Source: Candidatus Woesearchaeota archaeon (GTDB lineage: Archaea > Nanobdellota > Nanobdellia > Woesearchaeales > JAGVZT01). Taken from it: a DNA stretch of 37,014 nucleotides. Each line of letters starts with the position of its first letter. Position 1 is the stretch's first letter. Of this stretch, positions 2,142-37,014 are shown one piece after another. A program made the position numbers and the translations under genes. The stretch lies in the NCBI GenBank assembly GCA_018302335.1, contig JAGVZT010000001.1:67193-104206 (forward strand), in the 5' to 3' direction. Under the pieces are notes generated by a model, which was given only the letters and a program-made list of their open reading frames with translations, did no database searches and was not told the origin of the DNA.

Positions 2142-3691
2142 AGGAGGACCTGGCGCGGAAAGTCGCCCGCGCGCTGGCCACCCAGCGCAAGGAGGGGGGT
2201 CTTTCCGATGACGCATCCGGGCTCCCGCTGAATCAGCTCCTCGCCGCGGGCGCGCTGCTCGACCCATCTGAGCTAGGACGCTACGTCACTGCCAGCGGCG
2301 GGAAGCTCGACGTCATGCTCCTGGCGAAAGAACTCTCTGAGCGCTCGCGGCTCTCGGGGGACGCTCTCACCGCGCTGGAGCAGGCGCTGCTCTCCTCTGA
2401 TGCTGAGGAGGTGACGCGGCTTCTGGGCGCCGAAGCGGCAGGGAAGCTCAACGGCAGGTCGATTCGCTCCCTTCTTGAGGGCAGACGGGTGAAGGACGCT
2501 GCACTCGTCTCCCTCATGCAGGACAAGCGGCGCGGCAAGCCCATCGCTCAGGAGTACCGGAAGCGGGCCTCCAGGGTGAAGAATATCAGCACCGGCATCG
2601 CAGCCCTGGCACTCCTCGTGGGCGGTTTCCTCGGTGGAAAGGAGTACCTTGGCCGCGTCGAGTCCATGTCGCAAGCGGAAGAGAACGCGGCGCGCGAGGT
2701 GTTTGACGCGCAGTACCCACTTCAGGCGCCGGCGGACAGCACGTTCATCGAATCGCTTCCCGGCTATGCGGTCCCCTACGAGGAAGTCCCGTTCCGGATG
2801 CTGGGGATGGACATTGAGGCGGAAATGCCGTATCTGGACGCTGAGGACTTCAGCCAGCTGATGGAGGTCGCCGACCTTTTCCCAGGCACGACGCGGGGGT
2901 TTGACGCCCGGAGCAAGGCGGTGCTGACCGCCCAGATGACCCAGGAGTTCATGCCGGAGACGGTCGAGGCACTCTTCGAGAACTACGTGCTCGAGTACGC
3001 GGACAGCGATGAGCTCACCACGGACACCATCGTGGACCTGGCGAACCGGCACTACACGCTCTTCGATGACCCACAGCAGACTTTTGACTGGCTCCTTGCC
3101 CTGGCTTCCCGCGCGGAGGGCACGCACGCCGCCGGAGAGCTCACCTATATCGCAGGGCTCCTCGCCTCTGGCGAGAGGGCTCCGCTCTCGATGTACCTAC
3201 GGGACAGCGAAGACCTCCAGATGCTCGATGCGCGGCTGGTTGATGGAGCGGAGGGCCTCGGGAACTCGAAGGAGCTCTTCCTGTCGAGTGCCCAGGGAGA
3301 CGCGCTCCGGGTCTCGCGCGGGCTGTATCACGCCGCGATGCTCACGGGGGACGATGAACGCGCAACACTGCTGCGCGCGTCGCTCTACCATGCGGGAGCC
3401 ACGGTGGACTCCCCTATTTACAGTGAGGAGGATTTCACCTACGCGCCCTGGCTGCCCTCTGTCCATCTTCAGCTGGGCAGGGTGTACAAGGCGCACGCGG
3501 AATGGGACGATGCGGAGTTCGAGTATGGCATTGTCATCAACGCGTACGAGGCCTCTTCTCAAGCGGATGATGCACGGAGAGAGCAGGTGGACCCCGAGGC
3601 GGAGCGCGAGCGGGCGCTCGGCCTCACCGGCGAGGAGCGCGAGGCGGAGTTCCAGGAGTTCTACCGGACGCTGCGCGAGGAGATGCCATGA
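2138..3691 (+). CDS. large single-pass membrane protein with C-terminal helical/TPR-like region, unknown function
   Basis: This 517-residue protein starts at a GTG overlapping the previous stop by four bases. The first ~147 residues are a charged, helix-rich, probably cytoplasmic domain. A transmembrane helix lies at about 150-170. The remaining ~345 residues form an acidic, Tyr-rich, presumably extracytoplasmic region. Around 430-465 there is one stretch with the spacing and small/aromatic pattern of a tetratricopeptide repeat (LGRVYKAHAEWDDAEFEYG). No cysteines or catalytic motifs stand out. The C terminus, EEMP, is the same as that of the preceding membrane protein. It is the largest member of the operon and could be the scaffold of a membrane complex. 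No named family recognised. Confidence 0.78.
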   Translation: MKEDLARKVARALATQRKEGGLSDDASGLPLNQLLAAGALLDPSELGRYVTASGGKLDVMLLAKELSERSRLSGDALTALEQALLSSDAEEVTRLLGAEAAGKLNGRSIRSLLEGRRVKDAALVSLMQDKRRGKPIAQEYRKRASRVKNISTGIAALALLVGGFLGGKEYLGRVESMSQAEENAAREVFDAQYPLQAPADSTFIESLPGYAVPYEEVPFRMLGMDIEAEMPYLDAEDFSQLMEVADLFPGTTRGFDARSKAVLTAQMTQEFMPETVEALFENYVLEYADSDELTTDTIVDLANRHYTLFDDPQQTFDWLLALASRAEGTHAAGELTYIAGLLASGERAPLSMYLRDSEDLQMLDARLVDGAEGLGNSKELFLSSAQGDALRVSRGLYHAAMLTGDDERATLLRASLYHAGATVDSPIYSEEDFTYAPWLPSVHLQLGRVYKAHAEWDDAEFEYGIVINAYEASSQADDARREQVDPEAERERALGLTGEEREAEFQEFYRTLREEMP

Positions 3692-4290
3692 GACAGGCGC
3701 AGCAGGAGACGCTGGACTCCGTGTTCGAGGAGGCTCCTCAGAAGCGCATCTCCGGCAAGAAGCTGCTGCACGGCCTGCTCCGGGAGAGGGACCGCATGGA
3801 GCGCATCGGCGACCTAGATAGGAGGCTCGGCCGCAATCCTGAGCAGATTTCCCCTGATGATGTTCTCCGCTCCTACGCGGCAGCGCTGCAGGAGCACGGC
3901 TACTCTCTGGGAAAGGAGCAGTCCGTGCTGGAGGATTTCCTAGATCGCTATCAGGCATGGGAGGAGGGATATGCCGCAAGACGCGACAGGCTTGTGCAGT
4001 GCCTCAGGGAGGATGCCGCCCTCTCGAGATACAGGGACATGACTCCCTACAGCGCGGGCTGCCTCGCGGGGGTTGTGATGCCCCTCTTTACATGGCTGGT
4101 GCAGGAAGCCCAGCTTGCCCAGGGATTCAGTTTCCCGGAGGGAATCTGGTACGCCGTGTGGCCGGTGAGCGCGGCTGCCATCACCTGGCCCCTCGGCAGG
4201 TATGCGGCGCGTAGGGTCGGACTCGGGCTGCGCGCTGCCCGGGACCAGCGTGCCATCCGGAGGATAGCGCTCGATGAGCTCGGGAAATGA
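3688..4290 (+). CDS. two-helix membrane protein, divergent first member of a six-gene paralogous array
   Basis: This 200-residue protein starts at an ATG overlapping the previous stop (ATGA). Its layout matches the five genes downstream: a short N-terminal segment, a basic motif (SGKKLLHGLLRE, compare RWSNKKLVHELLQE in later members), a charged helical stretch, a conserved block of the type LEDFLDRYQAWEEGY, and two hydrophobic helices at about 118-140 and 150-172 followed by a basic tail. It lacks the RWSN signature and is the most divergent copy. It is also the only one in the upstream operon; the others start after a separate TATA box. Function unknown. Confidence 0.75.
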   Translation: MRQAQQETLDSVFEEAPQKRISGKKLLHGLLRERDRMERIGDLDRRLGRNPEQISPDDVLRSYAAALQEHGYSLGKEQSVLEDFLDRYQAWEEGYAARRDRLVQCLREDAALSRYRDMTPYSAGCLAGVVMPLFTWLVQEAQLAQGFSFPEGIWYAVWPVSAAAITWPLGRYAARRVGLGLRAARDQRAIRRIALDELGK

Positions 4291-4372
4291 GGGAAAGAAG
4301 ACCGCAAAACGCGTGAACGGGGCATGAGAGTGGAGAGCATTCCGGCAGGAACGACTGTCCGAGCTGAAAACT

Positions 4373-4380
4373 CTTATAAG
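4373..4380 (+). promoter_or_regulatory. TATA-like promoter of the paralogue array
   Basis: CTTATAAG lies in an AT-rich patch 33-40 bases before the ATG at 4413, inside the only sizeable gap (4291-4412) of region 1. A purine-rich GGGGAGAAG just before the ATG could serve as a ribosome site. The box suggests that the five downstream paralogues can be expressed independently of the E1-like operon. Confidence 0.55.
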
Positions 4381-4412
4381 GGCCGCGGCACCCCCTTCGC
4401 CGGGGAGAAGAG

Positions 4413-5027
4413 ATGACCACCATTCAGGAGAGCCTTGAGGAGCAGCTCACCAGCGAGAGCTTCCAGAAGAGCCCACGGTCTGGAAAGTCCTGGTCGAACG
4501 GAAAGCTCCTCAATGGCCTCGCGAAGGAGCTTCGCAGGGAGGAGCAGCGCGTCCGGAGACGGAATGCCTTGGAAGGCCGTGCCCTTGACATGGACTATGG
4601 CAGGGTTCTCGACGATTACCTCGGCTACGCGAGCGCCGCTCACGACCAGTCCGTGGACCCGAAGAAGCGGCCGCTGCTGGAGGAGTTCCTGCAGGGTTAC
4701 CAGGCATGGAAGCGGAAGTACGACAGCGATGCGCGTGGATTCCAGCAAGACACCATCGAACGATATTTGGAGGAAGAATTCTGGGGTGCAAGTCTCTGTA
4801 TCGGTTTTGCTGCTGCGACAGTCGGAATAATTGTTGCCGTGGAGGGCGGTCCGGCGGGGGCTTATGCCTTCGGAGGGGTGGAAGCTCTTGTCTTCGGCTG
4901 GCCCCTGCTCGGGTACGCGCTCGGCAGGCCTATCCTTGCCGCGAAGCGCGCACGGGCGCTCTCGTTCCTCAAGAAAGACACGCGTTTCCTGCTCGACCGC
5001 TATGACGAGATGGCAGGTGCAAGATGA
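4413..5027 (+). CDS. two-helix membrane protein, paralogue array member 2
   Basis: This 204-residue protein has an acidic N terminus, the family motif SWSNGKLLNGLAKELRREE at about 26-44, a charged helical block, the LEEFLQGYQAWKRKY block, then two hydrophobic helices at about 125-145 and 150-172 and a basic C-terminal tail containing FLLDRYDE. It is the first gene after a dedicated TATA box. Its stop overlaps the next ATG by four bases. Similarity to the four downstream proteins is obvious by eye over the full length, so the array arose by tandem duplication. No enzyme motif, cysteine pair or nucleotide-binding site is visible. Family not recognised. Confidence 0.8.
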   Translation: MTTIQESLEEQLTSESFQKSPRSGKSWSNGKLLNGLAKELRREEQRVRRRNALEGRALDMDYGRVLDDYLGYASAAHDQSVDPKKRPLLEEFLQGYQAWKRKYDSDARGFQQDTIERYLEEEFWGASLCIGFAAATVGIIVAVEGGPAGAYAFGGVEALVFGWPLLGYALGRPILAAKRARALSFLKKDTRFLLDRYDEMAGAR

Positions 5028-5632
5028 CCCAGCGACTGGAGCAGCAGGTGAGCGAGATATTCGCTGAGGAGGATGTGCCTGTGCAGCGTGGGCGCTGGTC
5101 CAACGGCAAGCTCGTCAAGGAGGTCCTGCGCGAGTTCCGCCGGGCGGAGAACGCCGCCGGATGGCAGTCGAGGCTCCAGAGCGGGTACCGAGTCAGCTAT
5201 ACGGAGACACTTGAAGAGCATCTCGGCTATCTCCGGGAGGCTCGAGCACTGGATTGCAGCCCGGAGAAGGAGCAGCTGCTCGTGGAATTCGCGGAGCAGT
5301 ACGCGAGCTGGCGCTCCTTGTATGAGCGTAAATCCCGGGAGGCGCGTGATGTCCTAGGATACTTCGGCAGTTTCGAGTACCTGTTCGGAGGCCTCTTTTT
5401 CGCCGGTGTGGTCATCGGGGGTGCTGCTGCGGCAGCCATCAGCGGGATAGGAGGCAACCCCGCATGGTGGACTGGCCTCGGCGCCTATGAGGCGCTGGTG
5501 TGCGGCTGGCCCGCGCTCGCATATGGCGTCCGCAGCGCGAAGACCGCGACGGACCGCAGCCTCCACCTTGGCGCGATGCGGAGCGAGCTGGTCACGAAAC
5601 TGGAGAGGCTTGACGCGAGGGGGAAGCCATGA
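5024..5632 (+). CDS. two-helix membrane protein, paralogue array member 3
   Basis: This 202-residue protein has the array layout: LEQQVSEIF near the N terminus, RWSNGKLVKEVLREFRR at about 26-42, a SYTETLEEHLGYL block, an LVEFAEQYASWRSLY block near 85-100, and two hydrophobic helices at about 122-142 and 148-170 joined by a Gly/Trp-containing turn. It ends in a basic helix and RGKP. It overlaps both neighbours through ATGA junctions, which implies one polycistronic message. Function unknown. Confidence 0.8.
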   Translation: MTQRLEQQVSEIFAEEDVPVQRGRWSNGKLVKEVLREFRRAENAAGWQSRLQSGYRVSYTETLEEHLGYLREARALDCSPEKEQLLVEFAEQYASWRSLYERKSREARDVLGYFGSFEYLFGGLFFAGVVIGGAAAAAISGIGGNPAWWTGLGAYEALVCGWPALAYGVRSAKTATDRSLHLGAMRSELVTKLERLDARGKP

Positions 5633-6252
5633 AGCAGAGGCAAGGACTGGACGACCAGGTGAGCGAGCTGCTGGAAGAGCGGCCCGAGGCGCTGGCAAGA
5701 CACGAGCGCTGGTCGAACAAGAAACTCGTGCACGAGCTGCTTCAGGAGTTCCGGCGGGAAGAAGGCAGGGTGGAACGGCAGAATGCCCTGCACGACCAGG
5801 CGAAGAGTGTCAGCTACGAGAAGACGCTCGACACGTATATTGACCACCTGAGCGACACCCGCGGTCTCGCCCTCGACGTCCCGAAGCGCAAGATGCTCGG
5901 CGAGCTGGTCACGGACTACAAGGCATGGAGGAGCAAGTATGATGTGAAGGCGGCGCGGCTGCCCGGCGAGACGTTCGGCATCTATGAGGATGGCGAATAC
6001 TGGAATGTGGCACTCGCTATAGGCCTATGCGGAGGCTTCGTCGCAGCGCTTTTCATGGGGGTGCTGGGAGCCGGACCCGGCTGGTGGTGGGGTCTCGGCG
6101 GTGTTGAGGGGCTCATCTTCGGCGGGCCGCTCGTCGCGTACGCCATCGCGAAGCCTAAGCTGGAGATTGAGCGCGCTCACTCCTTCAGATGGATGAAGCG
6201 TGACATTGCGGAGAAGCTCACTCGCTACGACCAGCGTGGGGTGAAGGGATGA
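5629..6252 (+). CDS. two-helix membrane protein, paralogue array member 4
   Basis: This 207-residue protein is the clearest intact representative of the array. It has LDDQVSELLEE at 7-17, RWSNKKLVHELLQEF at 27-41, SYEKTLDTYIDHL at 62-74, LVTDYKAWRSKY at 93-104, hydrophobic helices at about 126-147 and 152-175 separated by a GPGWWWG turn, and a basic tail ending RGVKG. The soluble N-terminal half is charged and probably cytoplasmic. The last 12 bases of this gene and the start of the following one form the first copy of a 47-bp direct repeat. Function unknown. Confidence 0.82.
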   Translation: MKQRQGLDDQVSELLEERPEALARHERWSNKKLVHELLQEFRREEGRVERQNALHDQAKSVSYEKTLDTYIDHLSDTRGLALDVPKRKMLGELVTDYKAWRSKYDVKAARLPGETFGIYEDGEYWNVALAIGLCGGFVAALFMGVLGAGPGWWWGLGGVEGLIFGGPLVAYAIAKPKLEIERAHSFRWMKRDIAEKLTRYDQRGVKG

Positions 6253-10737: not shown

Positions 10738-11979
10738 ATGGCACGCCAACCGAAGAGCTTCTTCACTCCGGAGCGCAGGACGCTTCTTGAGGACCTGACT
10801 GGTCTCTCGGAGACGGACACTGCTGCTCTTGAACTGGTCGGAAGGTACGCTGCGGAGAAACTCTGGCCGCAGTACGAGGCAATCAACGCGGACCGTAGGG
10901 CGTTTCATGCCGCAATGGACTCACTTATCGACCCGAAGCAGCTCGGTTTCCGGGGCAGCTTCCTTCCGGAGGACCTGGGAGGCATTGACCTGTCCATTCC
11001 CGCGTACATGATGGGACTGGAGATGCTCTCCCAGGGCAATGCGAGCGTTGCGCTCTCCCTCGCGATTGACGGCAGCGTGCTCTCAGCGCTTTCGAGGCTG
11101 GGCGATGAGCAGCAGCTCGGTCGGTATGTCCGGGATGCGCTGCGGGACAAGAGGATGACCGCGTTCGCGCTGACGGAGCCGGGATACGGGAGCGACGCGG
11201 GGAATCTCGAGACGCGTGCCACGACCGATGGCGCGTCCTGGAAGCTGAACGGCCAGAAGACCTGGACCACCAACGGCGGATGGGCCGACTATTATTTTGT
11301 GGTGTGCAGGACGAACCCCGACAGGAACCTCGGTCCTGCGGGACTCAGCGTGCTCATGGTGCACAAGGAGGAGATTGCTGCCATCGAGCAGATTCCCAAG
11401 TATACCGTGCCCGGCTCCTACACGGCTACGCTGACGTTTGCGGATAGTGTGGTGCCTGCGGCCGATGGGGCGGCCCGGCTCGTGGGCAGCGTGGACACCG
11501 GCTTCATGGACGCCAAGCGGCTTCTCGAGGGCGGGCGCATCACCATCGCATCGTTCGGCCTGGGCATCGCGAGCGAGGCCTTCGAGATGGCGTTGGATTA
11601 CACCCGCACGAGGGAATCGCAGGGTGAGGCCCTTATCGAGAAACAGGCAATCGCGCTTCCTCTCGCGGAGTTCGACGCGCGATTGGACGCCGCGAGGCTC
11701 ATGACCTACACCGCTGCGAAGCGCATGCAGGCCGGCAGGATGGAGAACGCCGAGGCGTCCAAGGCGAAGCTTCTCGGCTCAGAGCTCGCTGCGGAGCTTG
11801 CCGATTTCAACCGTCGGGTGCATGGCTCCTACGGCCTCGCGAAGGAGTATCGCTGTGTGCAGCTCATCCATGACGCCGGCGTCGCGGTGACCGGCGAAGG
11901 AACCTCAGAGATTCAGAAGATTCTCATCGCGTCCAACAGGAAGAAGAGGACAGGCAAGGACCCTGGGTTCAGGCCCTAG
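10738..11979 (+). CDS. acyl-CoA dehydrogenase family flavoprotein
   Basis: This 413-residue protein has the length and layout of acyl-CoA dehydrogenases: an N-terminal helical domain, the middle beta domain with FALTEPGYGSDAGNLETRA and the flavin-contacting WTTNGGWADYYFVV, and a C-terminal helical domain with HGSYGLAKEY and GEGTSEIQKILIA near 385-397. The Glu in GEGTSE is where the catalytic base sits in the family. The reaction is alpha,beta-dehydrogenation of an acyl-CoA with FAD; the acceptor would be an electron-transfer flavoprotein, not encoded here. Chain-length specificity cannot be read. It is divergent from the ferredoxin gene, which may hint at a redox link. Its end overlaps the convergent PHP gene by 11 bases. 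Confidence 0.9.
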   Translation: MARQPKSFFTPERRTLLEDLTGLSETDTAALELVGRYAAEKLWPQYEAINADRRAFHAAMDSLIDPKQLGFRGSFLPEDLGGIDLSIPAYMMGLEMLSQGNASVALSLAIDGSVLSALSRLGDEQQLGRYVRDALRDKRMTAFALTEPGYGSDAGNLETRATTDGASWKLNGQKTWTTNGGWADYYFVVCRTNPDRNLGPAGLSVLMVHKEEIAAIEQIPKYTVPGSYTATLTFADSVVPAADGAARLVGSVDTGFMDAKRLLEGGRITIASFGLGIASEAFEMALDYTRTRESQGEALIEKQAIALPLAEFDARLDAARLMTYTAAKRMQAGRMENAEASKAKLLGSELAAELADFNRRVHGSYGLAKEYRCVQLIHDAGVAVTGEGTSEIQKILIASNRKKRTGKDPGFRP

Positions 11980-31662: not shown

Positions 31663-32622
31663 ATGGCCGACGAAGCCGCTCAGTGCATCTTCTGCCGCAT
31701 CATCGCAGGAGAGATGGAGTCCCGCAAGGTCTACGAGGATGAGCGAGCGTTCGCGTGCCTGGACATCAGGCCCGGCGTGAAGGGCCACACTCTCCTGATG
31801 CCCAAGGAGCACTACCCTATCCTCCCAACCCTTCCGCAGAAGGAATTCGAGCACCTCTTCGGCCTGCTGCCCACGCTGCTGTCGGCGCTCGGCGGCGCCC
31901 TCGGCAAGACCGGAGCGAATGTCTTCATCGCGAACGGCGCAGCAGCGGGCCAGCAGAGTCCGCACTTCCTGATGCACCTGCTCCCACGGGAGCCCATGGA
32001 CAGCCTCAACCTTTATGCGCTCCGCGGGGAGGGCGCGCTGCGAGAGCATGACGAACTCCTTCCAGTGCTGCGGCAGAAGCTGGGGAAGCCCGGAGCCTCC
32101 AGCGCAGCGCGGCCGCCTCACCTGTCCAACGTCGACGGCGAGACGCTCTTCTCCGAGGGTGGAGTGGTGTGCGTCTCTCCCGCGCGCCCCCTGGTGCCGG
32201 GCCATCTGGTGCTCTACCCCGCGGAGCACGCGGCGTTCGCTTCGCTCCCGAAGGAGAGCTCCAGCAACCTCTTCCGAGCAGGGACCACGCTCGCCTCGCT
32301 CATCTTCCAGCTGCGTTCTGCGCAGGGGACAAATCTCATCCTCAAGACCGGGAACGCGGATGACAATCCGGGTGGATTCACTGCGTTGCATGTCATCCCC
32401 CGCACTGCAGACGACGGCCTGCGTCTGCAGTGGGAGCCACGCGAGATGGACCTCACCCCCATCGCCCAGCAGGTCTCTGCGATGATGCCGGTTCGGGAGG
32501 AGAAGAAAGTGCTGAAGACCATCACCTTCCGGGAGCCGATGCGCATCGGAGGGGCGCCCGCGCCCGTCACGGCACGAGAAGAGATTGCGGCGGCCATCCG
32601 GAATGTTCAATCCGTATATTAA
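31663..32622 (+). CDS. double HIT-domain protein with altered histidine triad
   Basis: This 319-residue protein has an N-terminal HIT domain with the zinc-type CIFCRIIAGE near 8-17 and LDIRPGVKGHTLLMPKEHY near 33-51. The active-site region reads GQQSPHFLMHLLPR near 100-113: first and third histidines of HxHxH are present, but the middle one, the nucleophile in Hint/Fhit enzymes, is Leu. A second HIT-like domain (about 160-265: FSEGGVVCVSPARPLVPGHLVLYP) has only ALHVIPR left of its triad. It may bind nucleotides without classic hydrolysis, or use another residue. Two-domain HIT proteins may be an archaeal subfamily. Has its own TATA-like box. Confidence 0.83.
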   Translation: MADEAAQCIFCRIIAGEMESRKVYEDERAFACLDIRPGVKGHTLLMPKEHYPILPTLPQKEFEHLFGLLPTLLSALGGALGKTGANVFIANGAAAGQQSPHFLMHLLPREPMDSLNLYALRGEGALREHDELLPVLRQKLGKPGASSAARPPHLSNVDGETLFSEGGVVCVSPARPLVPGHLVLYPAEHAAFASLPKESSSNLFRAGTTLASLIFQLRSAQGTNLILKTGNADDNPGGFTALHVIPRTADDGLRLQWEPREMDLTPIAQQVSAMMPVREEKKVLKTITFREPMRIGGAPAPVTAREEIAAAIRNVQSVY

Positions 32623-32650: not shown

Positions 32651-32660
32651 ATTTAAATAG
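32651..32660 (+). promoter_or_regulatory. TATA box of secA
   Basis: ATTTAAATAG lies 31-40 bases before the ATG at 32691, in an AT-rich stretch (32623-32660) unlike the surrounding GC-rich DNA. AGGGGTCAGG before the ATG may be a ribosome site. A GTG at 32664, in frame, would be a longer start but lies too close to the box. Confidence 0.7.
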
Positions 32661-32690
32661 GCGGTGGCGGAATCAAGGTCAGGGGTCAGG

Positions 32691-35600
32691 ATGCTGGACA
32701 GACTCTTCGGGGACAACACGTATCGCAAGCATTCTTCGGTAGTCGAACGCATCAACGCTCTTGAGGGCGAGATGTCCGCACTGAGTGACGGGCAGCTTTG
32801 CAACAAGACCGCAGAATACCGCGAGAGGCTCGCCGCAGGAGAGATACTGGACGACATTCTCCCGGAGGCCTTTGCCGCGGTGCGCGAGGCCTCGAAGCGC
32901 ACCATCGGGCTGCGGCATTACGATGTGCAGCTCGCGGGAGGGATGCTTCTGCATGAAGGCACCGCCCTGGAGATGCGCACGGGAGAGGGAAAGACCCTCG
33001 TGGCGACTTTGCCGCTCTATCTCAACGCCCTCTCGGGAGAGGGCGCCCATCTCGTCACGGTCAACGACTATCTCGCCCGGAGAGACGCGCGCTGGATGGG
33101 CCCGGTTTTCGAGGCGCTCGGGATGTCCGTCGGCGTTCTCCAGGACACTGCGGCCATCGGGCACGGCAACGCGCTGCTCTACGGGGGGGACCGTTCGGAG
33201 ATAGAGCTGGCGGACAGGTTGCGGGCCGTGTCCCGGCAGGAGGCCTACCACGCCGATGTCACCTACGGCACGAGCAGCGAGTTCGGCTTCGATTACCTGC
33301 GCGACAACATGGTCCGGAAGCTCGAGGACAAGGCCCAGCGCAATCATCATTACGCCATCGTGGACGAGGTGGACAGCATCCTCATCGACGAGGCGCGTAC
33401 CCCCCTCATCATCTCCGGCCCTGGGCAGCAGGACGATCAGATGTTCAGGGCAATGGCGCACGTGGTGGGACAGCTCTCGCCTGTGGACTATGAGGTCAAC
33501 GAGAAGGACAAGACCGTTTCGCTCACCGAGGCGGGAGAGCGGGCGGCCGAGCGGCTGCTCCGCGTGAGGCTCGGCGACCCGCTTGCTCCTGAGGAGGTCA
33601 GTGCCGAGCAGGCGTACCTCCGCGGGCACCTCGAGCAGGCCCTGCGCGCCAGGACGCTCTTCCTGAAGGACCGCGACTATGTGGTCCACGATGGCAAGGT
33701 GCTCATTGTGGACCCGCACACCGGACGCTTCATGCCAGGAAGGCGCTGGTCCGATGGCATCCATCAGGCTGTCGAGGCGAAGGAGCAGGTGGAGATCCAG
33801 AAGGAGAATGCAACTATCGCGACCATCACCCTGCAGAACTACTTCCGCCGGTACGCAAAGCTGGCAGGCATGTCCGGCACCGCGGTGTCCGAGGCGGAGG
33901 AGTTCGACAAGATTTACCACCTCAAGGCAGAGGAACTGCCCACCAATCTTGAGGCTCGCGTGCTCGGCCGCGAGCTGGAGAAGAAGCCTTATGTGGAGAA
34001 TGGGCAGAGATTCCAGGCCTACCATCGGCCAGGAGAGGGAAGCGCGCTCTTCTGGCAGCGCAAGGACCTGCCGGACCAGGTCTACCGCACACGCGAGGGA
34101 AAGCTCCGTGCGGTGAGCATAGAGATACTCCGGAGGCATGCCCTCGGCCAGCCCCTCCTCGTCGGAACGACGTCCGTGGAGCAGAGCGAGCAACTTTCTT
34201 CTCGCCTCTCCGGAGAGCAGCTCCGCGAGCTGGCGATGACGCTCGTGCTGCGCGACGTCTATACGGAGCGCCACGGTGGTGACCCGGACCTTCGCATCGA
34301 TGCGCTGCAGTCTCTCTACGGCCCTCTCGGCTCATTGGGCCCGACCATCTCGGAAATCAGCGGAAGTCTCAGTGTATCCGCGGACGTCACGGCCGAGGAG
34401 AATCTCGCCCGCCTCGCCGGAATCCTCGGTCTCGAAGGGAAAGAACGGCTTGCGTCACTGCTCCAGGGCGGCGTGAGGCATGAGGTGCTCAACGCGAGGC
34501 AACATTCGCGCGAAGCGGCCATCATCGCTCGCGCCGGCGCGCTTGGAGCGGTGACCATCGCGACGAACATGGCCGGTCGTGGCGTGGATATCAAGTTGGG
34601 CGGGGAACTTCCTGAGGAGACACTGGCGCACGTTGACGAGCTGCTGCGCAGCCGGGGCATCGCTGAACCCGGACAGCTTCCCATGGAGGAGCGCCTTGCT
34701 GCGCTTCCCGGGGCGGAAGATGAGCAGGTGGTACGGTTCCGGGAGTACATGTCGCAGCGCTCGCGCGTCATGGAACTCGGCGGGCTACACGTCATCGGGA
34801 CCGAGCGGCACGAGGCGCGCAGGATTGACAATCAGCTGCGAGGGCGCGCGGCCCGGCAGGGCGACCCCGGGAGCAGCCAGTTCTACCTTTCGCTGGAGGA
34901 CGACCTGAGCAGGCTCTTTGGCGGAGCGCCGGTGAGCAGCCTGATGTCCCGCCTGGGAATCGACGATATGACGCCGATTGCCGCGAGTATCGTGAACAAG
35001 ACCGTGGAGCAAGCGCAGCGGCGCATCGAGGGCGCGCACTTCGATGCCAGGAAGCACCTGCTCGACTACGACGACGTGCTCAACAGCCAGCGCGAGGCCT
35101 TCTACGGCCAACGGGACCGCATCCTCTCCAGGGAGGACCTGATTCCCGATGTGAAGCGCATGCTCCGCGAGGAAGTCGCGCTCCGCGCAGACGCGCGCTC
35201 TCTCGACGACCGCATATCGCTTCTCGACTGGCAGGAGCGCATCCAGCCCACCTTCGCCCGGAAAGGCATGGTGCATCCTTCTTACATGATTTCCCTGCTT
35301 CTCCCGCAGGTGGACGGGCAGGACGCATCCTCGCTGAAGAGGAGCCTGCTGGACATCGCCAGCCGGACCATCGAGAGGCAGCAGGCCCGCGGCCTTGACC
35401 GCTTCGCGGAGAAGCTGGACCTGGCATGCGAACGGCAGGAGGAGCGCATGCAGCGCCTGCGCCTGCTGGAAGAGGAGACCCTTGCGTCCGGCATGGACAG
35501 GACTCAGCTTGTCGGGGACTATCTGATGAATCTTGGCCAGCTCGGGGTGTCGCTGACTCTCGGCAAGAATCAGGAGGAGCGACTGCGCGACTCTCCCGAG

Positions 35601-36245
35601 GAGATGGTTCCTGAGCTCACCAAGCTCGCGTCAAATCTGCTGACGGAGCGCTTCTGGGAGGAGGCTGCCGGTGCTGCGTCCTCCATCGCCGGTGACCCCC
35701 TGGAGCCGGTGCAGGATTACGACAGGCTCATCGAAGCCGCGGAGCGCGCCGCTCCGGCAGGAAGGGAGCGCATCCTCGGCAGCATCCGGCCTGAGCTGGA
35801 CAGCATCCTCGCCTCCTCTCCCCCGATTGACGACCAGCTGAAGACGACGCTGCTGCTGCAGATGGCGGTCTTCTCTCGTACCCAGAAGGACAAGGAGGGC
35901 AAGGAGCGTAAGATAGTGGTGCCAAGACTGTACTATCCCGCCCTTGCGGCCGAATTCATGCCCGAGAGGGATTTCGCTGACGGCATCGCAGCGGGACTCG
36001 AGACCACGCTGGACAGCATGGCCTCGCGCGAGTTCAACGAGCGGCTCCGGGCCATCTTCCTCGGTGTCTCGGACAACCTGTGGGTGAATTATCTCAGCGC
36101 CAACGAGGCGCTGCGCACTTCGGTAGGGCTGCAGGCCTATGGCCAGCGCGACCCGCTGGTGGTCTTCAAGTCCACTGCGTCAGAGCAGTTCAGCCAGCTC
36201 CTCGCGGGGATGCGCGCAGAGGTCGTGGCGAATCTCTTCCGCTAG
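32691..36245 (+). CDS. secA: protein translocase ATPase SecA (long, Chloroflexota-like form)
   Basis: This 1184-residue protein is a complete SecA. NBD1 has [10 protein letters not shown] near 96-105 (Walker A) and [20 protein letters not shown] near 223-242; the preprotein-binding region follows, then [20 protein letters not shown]2 has a long insertion before [14 protein letters not shown] near 624-637, then [20 protein letters not shown] and [20 protein letters not shown] near 698-738, and a helical wing/scaffold region to the end. The reading [12 protein letters not shown] (most bacteria [12 protein letters not shown]), GVDI for GTDI, the NBD2 insertion and the C terminus without a zinc tail match, from memory, SecA of Chloroflexota. 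SecA drives proteins through SecYEG using ATP. Archaea are said to lack it, yet the TATA box and neighbours here look archaeal. The start was chosen by family N terminus (MLDRLFGDN). Confidence 0.93.
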
Positions 36246-36901
36246 TCCTTGACTGCCGGAGCGACATAGAAGAGTCCGAACAGTTCCGGTATCCATGAAT
36301 TCTTGCCGTCCATTGCCCAGTGCTGGACGCGCCAGCGCACCTGGTCAGCATCCGGCCAGGAGCCCCTGGTGATGCGGACAGGAAAGTCTTCTGTGTCGGC
36401 CTGCGCGGCGAGGCCTTTTGCGAGCTCGTACGAGGGGAGGAAATCGTCCACATACGCAGAGACCTGGAAGGTGAGCCGCGCGTTGAGGTCCAGCGTGAGA
36501 CTGACTGCCAGCACGGCGGGCTGGATGAAGTGACCCTCCACATACACCGGACCCTTGGCGAGTTCCGGCAGGCTCTCCCGCACGAGGGAATACAGTCCAT
36601 TGACCCTCTCCAGGTCAGTTTCCAGGGCATGGTGGCGGGCGGGCTTGAACAGTCTTTCGATGGTGCCGCTCCTGTCCAGAGCAGCCTGCGCATCCAGGGC
36701 CCCAGTACGCCATCCCTGCAACACGATGGACGTCGCCCGCTCAAGCACGTCTTGGTCTGGTTTCACATACAGGTCAACATGAGTCTTGGAACCCCTGCTG
36801 AGGAAATTCCCGGAGGAGCTGAGTTCCTGAAGCAGCTCCTTTGCGCGATGCTCGCGCTGCCGGCGTTCCATGCCCTCCGCGAGCGTGTCTTCTATCGCCA
36901 T
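36242..36901 (-). CDS. unknown protein, second of two tandem paralogues next to secA
   Basis: This 219-residue soluble protein has a charged N-terminal helix rich in Arg and Glu, then a mixed alpha/beta region ([39 protein letters not shown]) and an aromatic C terminus, [10 protein letters not shown] then [13 protein letters not shown]. No domain recognised. The start overlaps the stop region of an upstream gene on the same strand whose visible tail has the same ending pattern (RIKFAADMWGD, LGPFYVEPLVKGE), so the two are paralogues in one operon. Its TAG stop shares CTAG with the convergent secA stop. Functional link to secA is not shown. Confidence 0.65.
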
Positions 36902-36902
36902 G

Positions 36903-37014
36903 TCACTCCCCCTTGACGAGCGGCTCGACATAGAAGGGTCCGAGGGCATCATAACCGCAGAGGAGAGTGCCGAGCCTGTCCCCCCACATGTCAGCGGCGA
37001 ACTTGATGCGCTGG
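36903..37014 (-). CDS. 3' end of a paralogue of the preceding gene (partial)
   Basis: The minus-strand frame from the window edge encodes 36 residues ending FYVEPLVKGE before TGA at 36903-36905. The pattern R-x-x-x-x-x-x-W...LFG/LGPFYVxPxVK matches the end of the next gene downstream (36242-36901), whose ATG follows the stop with one base between. The upstream part lies outside the window. Function unknown. Confidence 0.6.
   Translation of the reverse strand, partial: QRIKFAADMWGDRLGTLLCGYDALGPFYVEPLVKGE

Follow-up and report, generated by a model that had tools for sequence, protein, structure and literature searches.

The stretch of DNA analysed here (the window, 37,014 nucleotides) is the terminal part, bases 67193-104206, of contig C42 (104,206 bp) of a draft genome, G000. 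Near its end lies a secA gene, which follows a gene for a HIT-domain protein and faces a convergent gene without a Pfam match (Table 1). In bacteria, SecA is the motor that drives completed proteins outward across the membrane. The secA frame (32664..36245, forward strand) is open over 1193 codons if counted from a GTG, and its first ATG, at 32691, yields a protein of 1184 aa. This ATG is the likely start and is preferred over the GTG at 32664 because the GTG begins 4 bases beyond the end of the TATA box, which is too near for inclusion in the transcript. The ATG is separated from the TATA box by 30 bases, and about 30 bases before the start is the usual position of an archaeal TATA box.

An earlier reading of this DNA, made from the sequence only, had described the gene as complete, preceded by archaeal promoter syntax and set between neighbors of similar GC content. 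The promoter is borne out by ATTTAAATAG at 32651-32660 and by TTTAAATA, which occurs once in the 37-kb window against 0.06 occurrences expected from shuffling. TATA-like 6-mers are found in 16 of the 43 gene-free upstream regions of C42, compared with 2.2% of random 60-mers, and in 20 of all 93 upstream regions; the gene set behind these counts consists of codon-model predictions made in this analysis, and secA is outside the 43, its upstream region touching the HIT gene. The GC content is 0.60-0.68 in each 1-kb step throughout the window, in agreement with the claim of similar neighbors. Elsewhere in the window, four tandem ORFs of about 200 aa each (3688-6252, forward strand) appear related by eye, some of them overlapping by 4 bases, and an acyl-CoA dehydrogenase-like protein is encoded at 10738-11979. 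Bases 1-12000 of C42 encode proteins that by eye resemble citrate synthase, methylisocitrate lyase, thiolase and enoyl-CoA hydratase; judged in this way, the metabolic genes of C42 suggest a carbon metabolism richer than one would look for in an archaeon of 1.5 Mb.

Table 1. Features of the secA locus (window coordinates) and the two archaeal SecA genes with a PHP domain (locus coordinates)
Feature	Position	Strand	Details
HIT-domain protein	31663..32622	+	319 aa; upstream neighbor of secA
Archaeal TATA box ATTTAAATAG	32651..32660	+	5' of secA
secA coding sequence	32691..36245	+	ATG start, 1184 aa, TAG stop
Walker A, TGEGKT	32979..32996	+	NBD1; residues 97-102
NBD1 insertion	33138..33230	+	residues 150-180; common to L007, L010, L012, L013
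Walker B, DEVD	33363..33374	+	residues 225-228
SecA_PP_bind, preprotein cross-linking domain	33435..33776	+	Pfam; inserted in NBD1
NBD2 insertion	34212..34463	+	about 84 aa; low-confidence helices in structure model
Motif VI	34833..34865	+	residues 715-725; Gly to Ala relative to E. coli
Enlarged helical wing region	35133..36044	+	304 aa
Two-helix finger	36027..36242	+	tip AYGQRDP; E. coli GYAQKDP
Convergent gene	36242..36952	-	no Pfam match; overlaps secA stop by 4 bases; tandem paralogue on C45
PHP-SecA of G244	L029:8241-12545		1434 aa; family f56
PHP-SecA of G285	L028:1128-5078		1316 aa; family f56, other genus than G244

Four Pfam SecA domains match the window protein: SecA_DEAD (390 bits), P-loop_SecA (PF21090, 249.8 bits), SecA_SW (PF07516, 134.6 bits) and SecA_PP_bind (PF01043, 112.7 bits; cut-off 23.5), all well past their cut-offs. 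Together with the frame 32691-36245, they uphold the description of a complete 1184-residue SecA. Among the NCBIfam models, the housekeeping SecA families PRK12904 (948.1 bits; cut-off 814) and TIGR00963 secA (881.3 bits; cut-off 800) are passed, and all four SecA2 models stay under their cut-offs (733/1085, 611/930, 562/1100 and 477/725). The predicted protein is thereby confirmed as a bacterial-type housekeeping SecA. Its 25 distinct PDB sequence matches are each SecA, SecA2 or a SecA chimera.

The motor motifs are essentially intact, as the sequence-only reading had it: both Walker motifs are found, NBD2 motifs V and VI are present, and motif VI retains its arginines despite the single change of Gly to Ala. 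The helical scaffold, wing and finger region is also present, with PF07516 matching in two stretches because the wing insertion splits it. The wing region reaches 304 aa. Of the 11 relatives, L016 has 324 aa here and the other ten have 35-93 aa, although a contig end truncates one of the ten. Two further segments, one of about 33 aa (residues 417-457) and one of about 84 aa (residues 507-592), are absent from all 11 bacterial relatives compared. The second of these is the long NBD2 insertion noticed before, and it is real: the window SecA has 86 aa at this place, and each of the 11 aligned bacterial relatives has 2-3. The window SecA stops after the finger and has no C-terminal zinc-binding tail, where the alignment consensus ends in CPCGSG. 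This tail is common among SecA proteins but not essential. An AlphaFold model based on a 12-row alignment has a mean pLDDT of 64 and a pTM of 0.58 and is fair in the core. The PDB entries closest to it in fold are crystal structures of SecA (1tf5, E 1.7e-55), and it compares with SecY-engaged SecA (6itc) at a TM of 0.82 by target length.

The genome that carries this gene is archaeal. The draft comprises 1.56 Mb in 75 contigs and is 93% complete with 1.6% contamination. Contig C73 encodes archaeal uL2 (NF007180, 322 bits; cut-off 265), uS3 (TIGR01008, 184 bits; cut-off 150) and an archaeal-type SecY, the one match in the genome, and contig C45 encodes aRF1 (TIGR03676, 419 bits; cut-off 235). 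The only archaeal lead on C42 itself is a family B DNA polymerase-like protein at 235 bits, under the model cut-off of 516. The sequence-only reading had allowed that the marker genes might turn out bacterial; uL2, uS3, aRF1 and SecY are all archaeal in type. The genomes listed for the host's class are mostly 0.5-2.1 Mb in size, and the host is probably a small-genome archaeon of the DPANN group, to which we presume that such sizes point.

The gene sits 100 kb into the 104-kb contig, 770 bp before its end. Among the 54 genes that encode 250 aa or more, it has the 20th-lowest codon-usage fit (z -0.4). Its GC3 is 0.81 (mean 0.83), and in tetranucleotide distance to C73 and C45 together it stands at the 22nd percentile among C42 windows. 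C42 ends in exactly the 99 bases with which C45 begins, as is typical of contigs linked in the assembly graph, and the join is crossed by an open gene of 217 aa, a paralogue of the convergent neighbor of secA. The two tandem paralogues (window 36242-36952 and C45 1-641, both on the reverse strand) are about 30% identical. Because of its contig-like codons and tetranucleotides, its TATA box, the overlapping convergent neighbor and the link to the aRF1-bearing contig, secA looks native to C42. A chimeric join, the other possibility that the sequence-only reading had raised, has left no sign in the composition, the 99-bp overlap or the read-through gene. The HIT neighbor has a 41% identical homologue in G100, the only other genome of the host's family in the comparison; no SecA was found in G100, which is 99% complete, and no homologue of the convergent gene in the 39 relatives searched, the latter absence being neutral as to whether secA is native.

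SecA is rare but recurrent among archaea of the phylum. PF01043 matches 5 of 378 genomes in the host's class, 7 of 352 in the order and 2 of 18 in family f56, and PF07516 matches 4 of 371 genomes drawn from the phylum. The union is ten genomes from seven families (G000, G164, G244, G285, G341, G437, G473, G499, G510 and G641), or about 1.6% of some 629 distinct archaeal genomes searched, a total estimated from genome numbering and including genomes searched with one of the two models. Among the control genomes, PF01043 matched ten bacteria only. The broader SecA_DEAD model was left out of the counting because M. jannaschii and S. acidocaldarius also match it. Thus, of the earlier proposal that a lineage of archaea had acquired SecA, the archaeal host with an acquired gene stands, but a single lineage is too narrow.

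The firmest archaeal context outside the window is that of G244, an independent case, in which about 210 bp separate secA from the gene for archaeal uS2 (TIGR01012, 254 bits; cut-off 211.5), with LysS also beside it and a Cbf5/TruB-type protein nearby. On the secA contigs of the other eight carriers, no gene passed an archaeal-specific cut-off among those tested. The contig of G285 is 6.4 kb long, and its SecA may be counted as archaeal by kinship to that of G244, to which it is 44% identical, both frames being open. In G437 (19-kb contig), the neighbors are of types seen in archaea, none of them diagnostic. The G510 contig encodes a proteasome-assembly-chaperone-like protein (127 bits, under the cut-off of 199) and that of G641 a TrmB-like protein (41 bits, under cut-off). 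No diagnostic archaeal neighbor was seen among the secA neighbors inspected in G164 and G499, and in G473 (10.6-kb contig) the four neighbors have no Pfam match. The SecA of G341, also on a 6.4-kb contig, could be contamination; its best model, PRK12901, is under cut-off, yet two housekeeping cut-offs are passed.

In the G244 and G285 proteins, NBD1 is interrupted after Walker A by a PHP domain that begins at about residue 205 and matches PF02811 with 46 and 48 bits, respectively (cut-off 26.4). Both have the motifs DLHIHT/DMHNHT, SDH/TDH, GIE, AH and TDTH/SDTH, which we take to be the metal site of a phosphoesterase. Motif VI of G285 departs from the norm (QLSGRSGRQGN). There is no PHP domain in the window SecA, and a literature search for SecA with a PHP domain gave a match that, by its listing, concerns coenzyme A. 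A very divergent archaeal SecA-like pair, in G164 (L031:9921-13034) and G510 (L095:1-2940), is 37% identical. G164 has no SecA_SW match and no recognizable finger tip, and the pair may represent a different use of the motor.

A scan of bacterial contigs gave 13 loci that are 38-61% identical to the window SecA in their best segment. Their genomes have one SecA domain match in ten cases, two in two and none in one; since ten of the 13 have a single match, most of these loci look housekeeping. In all, 58 SecA rows were collected, with duplicates and two short loci, L018 and L019, set aside. A quick tree was built from 39 rows (19 dropped) and careful trees from 27 (31 dropped, including the three most divergent archaeal rows, G164, G510 and G641) and 20. 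In the 27-row tree, the window SecA groups with L007 (95/88) and then with L012 and L013 (97/95), and in the 20-row tree with L007 (97/96) and then with L010 and L012 (92/89). By title, L007 is a bacterium (contig GC 62%), L010 belongs to Patescibacteria and L013 to Microgenomates; L012 is almost the same sequence as L013. Among the SecAs sampled, the nearest are therefore L007 and Patescibacteria/Microgenomates MAGs, although the support values overstate the certainty of the exact sister because the composition of the window row is unusual in the 39-, 27- and 20-row trees. By its tree, the window SecA was acquired from bacteria, with a Patescibacteria-like bacterium as the most likely donor.

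The sequence-only reading had pointed to a resemblance to Chloroflexota, for which the rows sampled gave no support. Chloroflexota account for none of the eight phylum-titled loci among the 13 (five, including L007, are titled only "bacterium"), and the sole Chloroflexota row sampled, a plasmid-borne SecA-like protein and not a housekeeping SecA, falls elsewhere on a long branch of the 39-row tree. An Omnitrophota donor was rejected: of 35 Omnitrophota genomes, 33 gave a match, but the window row groups with L007 in the trees. The NBD1 insertion is weak donor evidence because a similar, longer segment occurs in at least four Omnitrophota-phylum rows (L070, L071, L072 and L076). Searching viral contigs with peptide patterns brought up no relative; phage-labelled records gave 30 matches, with bacterial-looking secA among the 20 listed. 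In none of the trees do the archaeal rows come together as one clade. Forcing seven of them together costs 21 log units (AU p 0.0446), a borderline rejection of a single archaeal clade that makes more than one acquisition likely.

The best explanation for these observations is that an archaeon took up a housekeeping SecA from a bacterium and kept it as a working gene. The protein would bind ATP and, in its clamp, unfolded precursors, dock on the cytosolic face of the genome's one archaeal-type SecY and push the precursors through it after translation, alongside the SRP route, with archaeal SecDF helping on the outside. Such SecY-coupled, post-translational export seems reasonably probable, but it is inferred from the intactness of the motor. 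That the gene is kept under selection is indicated by 1184 codons that stay open although its own branch in the 27-row tree carries 0.97 changes per column. Persistence is also suggested by the G244/G285 pair, in which both frames are open. The finger tip, the clamp and the motor motifs, on which moving a chain through SecY depends, are all retained. Each of the six genomes tested has one SecY match, archaeal in type. No difference was evident between five SecA-bearing genomes and one SecA-free genome in the SecY loop, which is of the SGLQIPGFRRD type in all and is presumably the loop contacted by SecA in bacteria. Since the loop is alike with and without SecA, no co-adaptation to SecA is seen, and the partner, if it is SecY, is an unchanged archaeal channel. 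SecDF is found in 20 of 20 genomes tested, ten with and ten without SecA, which rules it out as a mark of a SecA pathway. Counted against export are the low share of carriers, the lack of SecA in G100 and of SecY co-adaptation, the Gly to Ala change and three insertions unlike most relatives.

The same lack of co-adaptation would fit a native gene under selection for a purpose other than SecY export, such as an ATP-driven unfoldase, a ribosome- or membrane-associated factor or a motor with another partner, to which the insertions would contribute. The extra segments of about 33, 84 and 210 aa agree with such a use, as do the two archaeal SecAs with an inserted PHP domain, the missing SecA_SW match in G164 and the end branches longer than 2 of G164 and G641. 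Against it, the window SecA retains everything named above for pushing a chain and scores past the housekeeping cut-offs; this reading is rather unlikely. It is quite improbable that the gene is a recent, unused passenger that is due to be lost: its sparse spread in the order would suit this, but there is no stop or frameshift along its branch, the promoter is of archaeal type, and the host-like composition throughout argues against recent arrival because a newcomer should show the composition of its donor.

An artefact of assembly or binning, in which a bacterial piece was fused to archaeal DNA or sorted into an archaeal bin, is more improbable still. The position of secA so close to a contig end in a fragmented draft, its absence from G100 and the downstream gene without a homologue in 39 relatives are what an artefact might leave behind. 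However, codon usage, GC3 and tetranucleotides match C42, the TATA box is present, the convergent neighbor overlaps secA, the 99-bp overlap leads to the aRF1 contig, and the HIT neighbor has its G100 homologue. Furthermore, the G244 gene beside archaeal uS2 demonstrates that archaeal SecA genes exist, to which the other eight genomes add less. Export through SecY remains the preferred reading for the window SecA. A wider proposal, offered tentatively, is that DPANN-like archaea recruited bacterial SecA several times and coupled it to SecYE-beta, and that one family rebuilt the motor with a PHP domain in NBD1. If true, DPANN-like archaea would have ATP-driven post-translational export, and PHP-SecA would be a new type of translocase ATPase.

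Archaea have been described as lacking a SecA homologue in a passage of the review PMC2910488, and a passage of the review PMC7613921 states that it is not clear whether they possess one. Passages of PMC7987157 report a UniProt search of archaea with E. coli SecA, whose top hit, a Natrialbaceae record, was used as a query and gave 56 significant hits, many of them very short; this was read as better accounted for by a few transfers, and the family was dropped. A passage of PMC9938205 lists secA among the Sec genes of ultra-small bacteria and archaea jointly, without assigning it to either, and the first 300,000 characters of PMC7203096 do not contain SecA as a whole word. Passages of PMC8675477 had no bearing on the matter. 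None of the literature matches listed, which leave out subscription papers, is a study of an archaeal SecA. The window offers a clean archaeal case on a long contig, with nine further genomes to examine, and its SecA and archaeal SecY make a concrete pair for asking if a bacterial-type motor can drive an archaeal channel. It suggests that the line between domains with and without SecA has been crossed in nature.

With the archaeal entries of PMC7987157, the present case shares the occurrence of SecA-like sequences in archaeal records; the genome context, tree and mechanism given here are absent from the passages of that paper. SecA2 accessory translocase ATPases are alike in fold and core, but the window SecA stays under all four of their cut-offs. 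Its closest counterpart is SecA1 (TIGR00963, NF009538), with which it shares the full domain set, motor motifs, clamp and finger, as well as a score past the equivalog cut-offs, and its identity to E. coli SecA across shared columns is 49%. It differs from SecA1 in its extra NBD2 and wing segments, the lack of a zinc tail, the Ala in motif VI and its host, an archaeon with an archaeal SecY.
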